From contig JAFGUF010000022.1 of NCBI GenBank assembly GCA_016938675.1, positions 62,001 to 126,000 on the forward strand: a stretch of DNA of 64,000 nucleotides. Reading direction: 5' to 3'. This document shows, piece after piece, positions 3,700 to 49,782 of this stretch; position 1 is the first letter of the stretch, and each line of letters opens with the position of its first letter. The notes beneath the pieces were generated by a model, which did not search any database, had not been told where the DNA came from, and saw nothing but the letters and a program-made list of their open reading frames with translations. Made by a program: the position numbers and the translations under genes. The stretch comes from Clostridia bacterium. Its GTDB lineage: Bacteria; Bacillota; Clostridia; Christensenellales; UMGS416.

Positions 3700-3890
3700 C
3701 TGCATACTCTTAGTGTCTCTGTCCCTATTCCTGAGAGATTCCCCTGCCATGCAGAGTTGCCCCGTCGGCCTGCGCGCTGCCGCAGATATCCAGAGTATCG
3801 TCCTACTACGGTCCTTTTACCTGAGAGTTTTCACACACATTCTCCTTCGGTCCTTTTTTCAAAGTGTCTCCCGCAGTTATCATCCGATTA
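3700..3890 (-). promoter_or_regulatory. Tandem glycine riboswitch upstream of gcvT
   Basis: Reverse complement contains GGACCGAAGGAGAA...CTCTCAGGTAAAAGGACC...ACTCTGG followed by GCCGACGGGGCAACTCTGC...AATCTCTCAGGAATAGGGACAGAG, i.e. two glycine aptamer cores; located directly 5' of gcvT. Confidence 0.92.
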
Positions 3891-3906: not shown

Positions 3907-3935
3907 ATTATAAATCCTATTCCTCGTAATGTCAA
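3907..3935 (-). promoter_or_regulatory. Consensus sigma-A promoter for the gcv operon
   Basis: Reverse strand TTGACA-17 nt-TATAAT (3935-3930 and 3912-3907). Confidence 0.85.
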
Positions 3936-31053: not shown

Positions 31054-31772
31054 ATATGAATATAAAAAGAAGTGTTAACTGCATAAATGCCGATGTAAAG
31101 TTCCAGCTTAAGCACGGTTTCTACACTGTATACATAGTGCTCTCTGTCGTATATATCATTATTAATAGCTTTATATCGCAGGAAGCCCTTAAATATGTGC
31201 TGCCGATACTGATATATATGGATCCAGCAGGTCTTGGCCTTTTTTTTATAGGCGGCATGGTTCTGATGGAGAAGGAGCAGGGAATTCTATCTCTGGTATA
31301 TATAACTCCACTAAGGGTTAATGAATACATCGTAAGCAAAATAATCACACTGGGATTGATATCCGCACTGGCAGGCACGGCCGTTTCCCTGGCATCGTAC
31401 AGGCTGCACTGCAATTATTTTCTGCTGTTTTCCGGCACTTTTCTGGTTTCTGTTTTTTATACATTGCTTGGGTTTCTTATTGTAGCCCGTGTAAAAACAG
31501 TAAATGAGTATTTGATAAAAATGATCCCTTTGATGTTGATTTTCATTATACCCTGCCTCACTATGATACCGAACAGCTTTTTGCCCGGTTTTGTGAACAC
31601 CATATCATACGCTGTTCCAAGCGCAGGCGGACTAAAGCTGATATTCGCTGCATATGAAGCAGTTCCTCCGCTTGATGCTGCAGTTAGCTTTCTGGGGTTA
31701 ATTCTATTTGACGGACTGCTCATAAAAAGGGTACATAAAATACTAACAGACAAAATAATCCTTAATGCGTGA
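31050..31772 (+). CDS. ABC-2 type transporter permease
   Basis: 240 aa polytopic, overlaps ATPase gene. Confidence 0.8.
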   Translation: MNMNIKRSVNCINADVKFQLKHGFYTVYIVLSVVYIIINSFISQEALKYVLPILIYMDPAGLGLFFIGGMVLMEKEQGILSLVYITPLRVNEYIVSKIITLGLISALAGTAVSLASYRLHCNYFLLFSGTFLVSVFYTLLGFLIVARVKTVNEYLIKMIPLMLIFIIPCLTMIPNSFLPGFVNTISYAVPSAGGLKLIFAAYEAVPPLDAAVSFLGLILFDGLLIKRVHKILTDKIILNA

Positions 31773-47731: not shown

Positions 47732-48799
47732 ATGGCAAAAAAAGACACACAAAAAAAAGCTATGCCGAAGGCAATGAAAACCGTACTAGTTATAGTTGCG
47801 GATTTGATAATGATCGGCGTGTTTCTATGCACTTTTGCGTACTTCCACCATGTAAGGCCGCATAAGAGCACCGAAGCTCCGGTAGTTATTGTGCGCCCCA
47901 CTGAAGCACCAGCTGCTATCGTAGAAACAACACCGGGTCCCAGCACTGGCGAGGATGCACAGCCTACAGAAGTAGTGCCCCTTACTTGGAAAGAGAAATT
48001 TGCAGATAAGTTTACTGACGGCGAGGTTATCCGGACTGAGAATTCTTATATTAGCGCCAATACGCATGTAACGATTACAAAGCATGAAACCACTGTGCAA
48101 AGAGAATACAACAAGACAATGGTTAATTACCCGCTTGTATACTATGTTGCTGATATATATATAACAGACGTTGAGCAATTCGGCGCTGTATTCGCTAAGG
48201 GTGAATACCTTCCGGGGTCATCGGCCTCCACTCTGAATCAGGTAGTAGGCAATAATGGCGTAATAGGAATAAACGGAGACAACTACGGCTCAAGACAAAT
48301 AGGCCTTGTAATAAGAAACGGCGTCCTCTACAGGCAGGATTTATATCCAGGCGATGTAATGGTTCTTTATTATGACGGTACAATGGAGCCTATATATTAT
48401 AGTGATGTAGATGTAAATAGTATCGTTGCAAAGGGCCCTTATCAGGCATGGTCATTCGGCCCAATTTTCGTGAAAGACGGCCAGCAGGTAATAAGCCCGC
48501 AAAGAGAAGACTACATAGATCAGGATAATCCCCGCACATCAATAGGATACTTTGAGCCTGGTCATTACTGCATGGTTGTAGTTGAAGGCAGGAGCGACAC
48601 CTCAATAGGCGCAAACTCAACTGAAATTTCGCAGATATTCCTAGACCTTGGCTGTGAATCGGCATATAACCTAGACGGCGGCGGAACATCCGCAATGGTA
48701 TTTAACGGTGAGTACGTAAATGAGCGTGCCGGCGGCGGACGAAACAGCAACGACACAATTGTAATATTTGACCCTGACTTCGCAAAGGATGGTGAGTAA
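47732..48799 (+). CDS. Phosphodiester glycosidase (NAGPA-domain) family exoprotein
   Basis: N-terminal TM; NNGVIGINGDNYGSRQIGLVIRNG, LDLGCESAYNLDGGGTSAMVFNG. Confidence 0.88.
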   Translation: MAKKDTQKKAMPKAMKTVLVIVADLIMIGVFLCTFAYFHHVRPHKSTEAPVVIVRPTEAPAAIVETTPGPSTGEDAQPTEVVPLTWKEKFADKFTDGEVIRTENSYISANTHVTITKHETTVQREYNKTMVNYPLVYYVADIYITDVEQFGAVFAKGEYLPGSSASTLNQVVGNNGVIGINGDNYGSRQIGLVIRNGVLYRQDLYPGDVMVLYYDGTMEPIYYSDVDVNSIVAKGPYQAWSFGPIFVKDGQQVISPQREDYIDQDNPRTSIGYFEPGHYCMVVVEGRSDTSIGANSTEISQIFLDLGCESAYNLDGGGTSAMVFNGEYVNERAGGGRNSNDTIVIFDPDFAKDGE

Positions 48800-48801
48800 A
48801 A

Positions 48802-49005
48802 ATGAAACTGCATAAAATATTACCTCACATTAATTTAGCTCTGTCTATTACCATGCTTACTGTAATCGTGGTAAACTCCATAAATCCGATGATGACTTTC
48901 CTTGTAGGAAATGAATTTGAAACTCTTTTGATTGTATTAGTAGGCATCGGAATAATATCATCTTCCGCGGCGATATGGCATAATGCAAAATGTAATAAGA
49001 AATAA
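48802..49005 (+). CDS. Small membrane protein
   Basis: 67 aa with two hydrophobic segments, 2 nt after upstream stop. Confidence 0.6.
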   Translation: MKLHKILPHINLALSITMLTVIVVNSINPMMTFLVGNEFETLLIVLVGIGIISSSAAIWHNAKCNKK

Positions 49006-49031
49006 TTAACTCTGATTAATGGCTTTTAGTA

Positions 49032-49066
49032 AAGAATCCACTGCTAAGCAGTGGATTCTTTTTAAA
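49032..49066. terminator. Strong intrinsic terminator hairpin, possibly bidirectional
   Basis: AAAGAATCCACTGC-taa-GCAGTGGATTCTTTTT. Confidence 0.88.
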
Positions 49067-49169
49067 TGCATTTTTGTGATGTTTGCTGTAATATATAGTC
49101 TGAGAATTTCATCTCGCGTTGTCTGCTTTTTGTTCCCTCGCGGCTTTTTGCCATCGATGAGTGTTTCAT
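49062..49169 (-). CDS. Unannotated small protein, 35 aa: MKHSSMAKSREGTKSRQREMKFSDYILQQTSQKCI
   Basis: GAAAGGAGTG SD, consensus promoter TTGACA-17-TACAAT about 107 nt upstream, hairpin just past stop; absent from supplied ORF track because it is short. Confidence 0.65.
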   Translation of the reverse strand: MKHSSMAKSREGTKSRQREMKFSDYILQQTSQKCI

Positions 49170-49282
49170 AAAATATTCACTCCTTTCAAAAAAGACACAT
49201 TGTAAATATTTCGTTTTTTGCCTTCTTACTTCATTAATATTATTTGTAATCGAGAAAGTTATCTTTTGCTAACTTTACCTGT

Positions 49283-49311
49283 ATTGTACTGCCTCCTAAT
49301 ATAATTGTCAA
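49283..49311 (-). promoter_or_regulatory. Consensus promoter for the 35-aa ORF transcript
   Basis: Reverse strand TTGACA (49311-49306), 17-nt spacer, TACAAT (49288-49283). Confidence 0.8.
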
Positions 49312-49347: not shown

Positions 49348-49384
49348 AAAGGAACACTTAGCTTTTTACGCCAAGTGTCCTTAT
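49348..49384. terminator. Intrinsic terminator
   Basis: AAGGAACACTTagctttttacgccAAGTGTCCTTATTA. Confidence 0.75.
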
Positions 49385-49407: not shown

Positions 49408-49782
49408 CTAATACTTTTCAGAGTACCCTTTCTCTATTCTCCATTCGGGTACTTCCCCGTTTTCGCCCCAGTATTCTGTTATTTCATCTATTTTCCCATC
49501 ACTGACTTTAAAAAACGAAGTAACGTAAAGACTTATTCCCTCATCATTAAAAACTTTCACCGCTGAAACAGCAAAATTATCACATGCAGCAATCTTTTCG
49601 ATTTCAGCGTGCCATCTGCCCGGATAGTCCCGGTTGAATTCAATATAGTTTTCGCAGCCTCTAAATATCTCTCTGGTATTGGGGAGGATAACATTTGCGT
49701 TGTCTTCCATTACTACACGCAGTTTATCAAATTCCGCCTTGTCAATGTATTCCCAGAATTTTTTAACGATTTCTATATTCAT
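49408..49782 (-). CDS. SnoaL/NTF2-like fold protein
   Basis: MNIEIVKKFWEYIDKAEFDKLRVVMEDNANVILPNTREIFRGCENYIEFNRDYPGRWHAEIEKI. Confidence 0.7.
   Translation of the reverse strand: MNIEIVKKFWEYIDKAEFDKLRVVMEDNANVILPNTREIFRGCENYIEFNRDYPGRWHAEIEKIAACDNFAVSAVKVFNDEGISLYVTSFFKVSDGKIDEITEYWGENGEVPEWRIEKGYSEKY

Follow-up and report, generated by a model that had tools for sequence, protein, structure and literature searches.

The window analysed here, a 64-kb stretch of DNA, comes from contig C37 (160.7 kb), one of the 45 contigs of a 2.6-Mb genome. Only ~5.4 kb of the window is intergenic. One of its intergenic gaps separates two convergent groups of genes (Table 1). On the plus strand, a gene for a small membrane-type protein comes after the phosphodiester glycosidase (NAGPA) gene. 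On the minus strand, an operon of pgi and a SnoaL-like gene ends at a terminator inside the gap. Bounded by this terminator and that of the convergent gene, the minus strand carries a candidate unit with a promoter, a short leader, a Shine-Dalgarno (SD) sequence and a 35-codon open reading frame (ORF).

Table 1. Features of the candidate unit and its immediate neighbours, in window positions
Feature	Positions	Strand	Details
Convergent neighbour, 67-aa membrane-type protein	48802-49005	+	Paired with the NAGPA gene 47732-48799; pair kept in family relatives
Hairpin, 14-bp stem, -21 kcal/mol	49028-49061	+	T-tract TTCTTTTTAAA on the plus strand; ~20 nt beyond the stop codon of gene 48802-49005
35-codon ORF MKHSSMAKSREGTKSRQREMKFSDYILQQTSQKCI	49062-49169	-	ATG 49169, stop TAA 49064-49062; pI 10, GRAVY -1.2
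Shine-Dalgarno GAAAGGAG	49180-49187	-	Ends 10 nt before ATG 49169
Inverted repeat AAAGTTA-N8-TAACTTT	49255-49276	-	Predicted 5' end; weak 5' hairpin or single operator
Sigma-A type promoter TTGACA-17-TACAAT	49283-49311	-	TTGACA 49311-49306, 17-nt spacer, TACAAT 49288-49283
Terminator of the upstream pgi/SnoaL-like operon	49352-49380	-	Separates the operon from the small transcript

The neighbouring genes

The nearest genomes compared were seven relatives at the family level, and the 65% identity of its pgi makes a MAG a relative at this level. Both pgi and the NAGPA-linked 67-aa gene exist across the family, but in the relatives compared they are not adjacent to each other, and no ORF resembling the 35-codon frame lies beside either of them. 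The plus-strand pair (47732-49005) consists of NAGPA and a membrane-type protein of 65-86 aa with the motif ILPHxxIxLxxMMxVFxxxDxxNxAMxF. It occurs in four or five other family genomes with varying remaining neighbours, and no Pfam or NCBIfam model matched the membrane-type partner. The SnoaL-like gene (49408-49782, minus strand) begins directly after the pgi stop. Its homologues are found in about 30 of 396 order genomes and in none of the seven other family members, which suggests that it was acquired by transfer or lost repeatedly.

The promoter and the leader

The initial annotation read a TTGACA-17-TACAAT promoter on the minus strand, and its coordinates proved exact. Genome-wide there are 40 copies of TTGACA-N17-TAYAAT, against three of the control, the same pattern read backwards. 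We inspected 30 of the 40 sites, including the one at this locus, and 28 of the 29 others face a gene, tRNA, riboswitch or T-box. The features following these sites include tRNAs, NiCo and TPP riboswitches, a T-box and the window's glycine riboswitch, and the protein genes include rpmH, ferredoxin, AbrB-like and YceD-like genes and other long ORFs; the protein names were assigned by reading translations. Given the 40:3 enrichment and the genes or RNA genes faced by nearly all other inspected sites, the promoter is very probably real, and it provides the frame with a promoter of its own, as in orphan small-protein genes.

The single exception (L088, G000:C15:23114-23142) is a TTGACA-17-TACAAT site with overlapping palindromes. 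Within 1 kb downstream on the same strand no gene is evident, and the site may mark an operator region or an unannotated RNA. The window's glycine riboswitch is a tandem one (3717-3883, minus strand), lying 3' of a promoter at 3935 that matches the consensus perfectly.

The promoter control also bears on the view that no functional transcript exists and that the elements came together by chance. The unit is the best case picked by a reader scanning 64 kb, and it lacks conservation, as a coincidence would. However, the reversed pattern is found only three times against 40 genome-wide, the combination of SD and ORF described below is nearly gene-specific in the window, and the intergenic DNA in which such a coincidence could arise is scarce. 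We therefore regard coincidence as very improbable.

The predicted transcript begins with an inverted repeat. The 5' hairpin proposed earlier is present, but it is weak (-4.0 kcal/mol), and the repeat could act as an RNA stabiliser or as a local operator. A regulon sharing this operator was rejected, as the repeat has one exact copy genome-wide, and sites with up to two mismatches are fewer (22) than those of the reversed control (51). The predicted transcript contains no Rfam family at the gathering score; the sub-threshold matches are chance only, and a known RNA family was rejected.

The hairpin at the stop codon

A terminator-like hairpin at the stop codon had been counted among the signals of the unit. 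The stem is indeed present, but its T-tract lies on the plus strand, shortly past the stop of 48802-49005; therefore, the hairpin is primarily this convergent gene's terminator. Read on the minus strand, the hairpin is followed by ACTAAAAG, with no T-tract of its own 3' of the stem, and the sole possible U-tract is TTCTTT within the stem arm. In addition, the terminator scan did not pick it up. The hairpin is thus no independent evidence for a minus-strand gene, and it is plausible that it works as a bidirectional terminator common to the small transcript.

Alternatively, the same promoter might produce a regulatory RNA of ~255 nt, non-coding or dual-function, which acts by base-pairing, for example with the convergent 48802 mRNA (through 3' overlap at the shared terminator) or with distant mRNAs, leaving the ORF incidental or secondary. 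The very probable promoter and the weak coding signal described below suit such an RNA, and the transcript folds better than shuffles (z -3.9) with its 5' hairpin. However, the folding excess is mostly the terminator stem, which alone gives z -7.2. No C-rich pairing loop was seen by eye, no Rfam family reached the gathering score, and the arrangement of SD, ATG and ORF is rare by chance. We consider a regulatory RNA of this kind rather unlikely.

Translation start and codon usage

The SD sequence before ATG 49169 was confirmed, the ORF coordinates and its 35-aa translation were exact, and the peptide is basic, as had been noted. In the 259-nt transcript, AGGAG or GGAGG a short distance 5' of an ATG that opens a frame of 30 codons or more arises in 0.12% of dinucleotide shuffles, and a looser rule, with four-base SD matches and any start codon, is satisfied in 2-4%. 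Across both strands of the window, the strict rule selects 26 places. Known genes account for 23 of these, and a 239-aa ORF on the edge of the window for one more; the remaining two are the 35-codon ORF and an apparent chance case at 31561-31653. The start signals hence lie above chance, as in orphan small-protein genes. The accessibility of the SD (0.39) is ordinary, the range in 40 genes of the genome being 0.02-0.97. RNA-thermometer-like sequestration, in which a U-run would pair with AAAGGA, was rejected because the accessibility is ordinary against these 40 genes and barely shifts between 15 and 50 °C. The initiation region is also much like TTTTTTGAAAGGAGGAATAATTTATG, the apparent start of an unrelated ORF in another order genome (L103). 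Taken together, the rarity under the strict rule, the ordinary accessibility and the likeness to this start make translation of the 35-codon frame probable.

Beyond the start signals, the frame has no coding support. Among real gene chunks, its codon score ranks at the 2.5th percentile, and 13% of same-composition random frames score as high, a comparison of little power at 34 codons. A gene-like codon signal is often missing in young or very short genes, and the low score is weak evidence against coding in a 35-codon orphan. The single-sequence AlphaFold2 model shows one helix at residues 10-34, which is common for short peptides and by itself little evidence.

Searches for relatives

Homologues of the peptide were found neither in the seven family genomes nor in the 396 order genomes (best per-genome E 0.019, put down to chance after inspection), the 392 class genomes, phages or plasmids. 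The weak protein matches in the family and order genomes (E 0.02-0.4) were judged chance because they have stops inside or abutting, have no corresponding start, or form part of long frames that are unrelated. When 85,462 species genomes were scanned by pattern, with the ORF queried as part of its 68-aa open frame, there were 135 pattern matches and no relative. The peptide matched nothing in Pfam, NCBIfam, PHROGs or PDB sequences, in agreement with the initial annotation, in which its family was not recognised. The absence of homologues is again that of an orphan small-protein gene. At the DNA level, a search with the whole unit returned short matches only and no relative; one of these is the SD and start region of the unrelated L103 ORF, and the rest look like chance.

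The orphan status would also be expected if the promoter, leader and first 35 codons were what is left of a longer gene that decayed or was truncated. The stop codon inside the A-tract of the neighbour's terminator and the codon usage, which is not gene-like, fit such a remnant. However, a longer relative of the peptide is absent from its own genome and from every genome searched, and no Pfam, NCBIfam or PHROG profile matched, so that we find a remnant improbable.

Discussion

The enrichment of the promoter class and the nearly gene-specific SD rule make a ~255-nt minus-strand transcript likely and its translation probable. The initial annotation held that the signals together exceed chance and mark a stand-alone small-protein gene. 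The first claim stands for the promoter and for the SD-ORF arrangement, but not for the hairpin, which belongs mainly to the convergent gene. As to the second, genome-calibrated controls support a transcription unit with a translation start well, whereas neither homologues nor codon usage support a functional protein. We lean somewhat towards a stand-alone, lineage-private small mRNA that is translated and ends at the shared hairpin, most likely a young orphan gene. It is probably genuine and not extraordinary; the unit is ordinary in kind; its signals are good, and it offers no handle on function.

According to this preferred reading of a small translated mRNA, transcription would start near 49276 at the near-consensus sigma-A promoter, just 3' of the terminator of the pgi/SnoaL operon. 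The good SD would direct translation of a 35-residue peptide that is basic and largely helical, and the ~255-nt mRNA would end at the hairpin with which the convergent gene is terminated too. If the peptide has a role, our guess is that it binds RNA or an acidic protein partner. Possible, but doubtful, is the bolder proposal of a new, genus-private regulator, either a small basic peptide or a dual-function RNA, expressed from a promoter that looks to be among the strongest of the genome.

If expressed, the unit would be a clean case of a small gene that lacks annotation and is private to its uncultured clostridial lineage, a kind that gene callers can miss. In addition, the promoter-class control is a simple means of ranking such candidates.

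FbpB-type proteins of Bacillus are small and basic. The peptide resembles them in being small and basic with a helical C-terminal part, but it has no Pfam match at E <= 1, and no Fur-box-like repeat was seen by eye at its promoter. The small protein SR1P has 39 residues. Together with its RNA it forms SR1/SR1P, a dual-function sRNA of Bacillus subtilis (PMC8501984, PMC8152036). Our unit is likewise a small independent transcript with a small-protein ORF and possibly a dual-function sRNA, but neither the 35-residue peptide nor the RNA has a family-library match. Orphan intergenic small genes have also been found by ribosome profiling, for example in E. coli O157:H7 (PMC5597208, PMC4765031). Whereas the E. 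coli genes come from ribosome profiling and the 35-codon unit is predicted from sequence, both are short intergenic ORFs without a known domain, taxonomically restricted and equipped with a promoter and an SD sequence.
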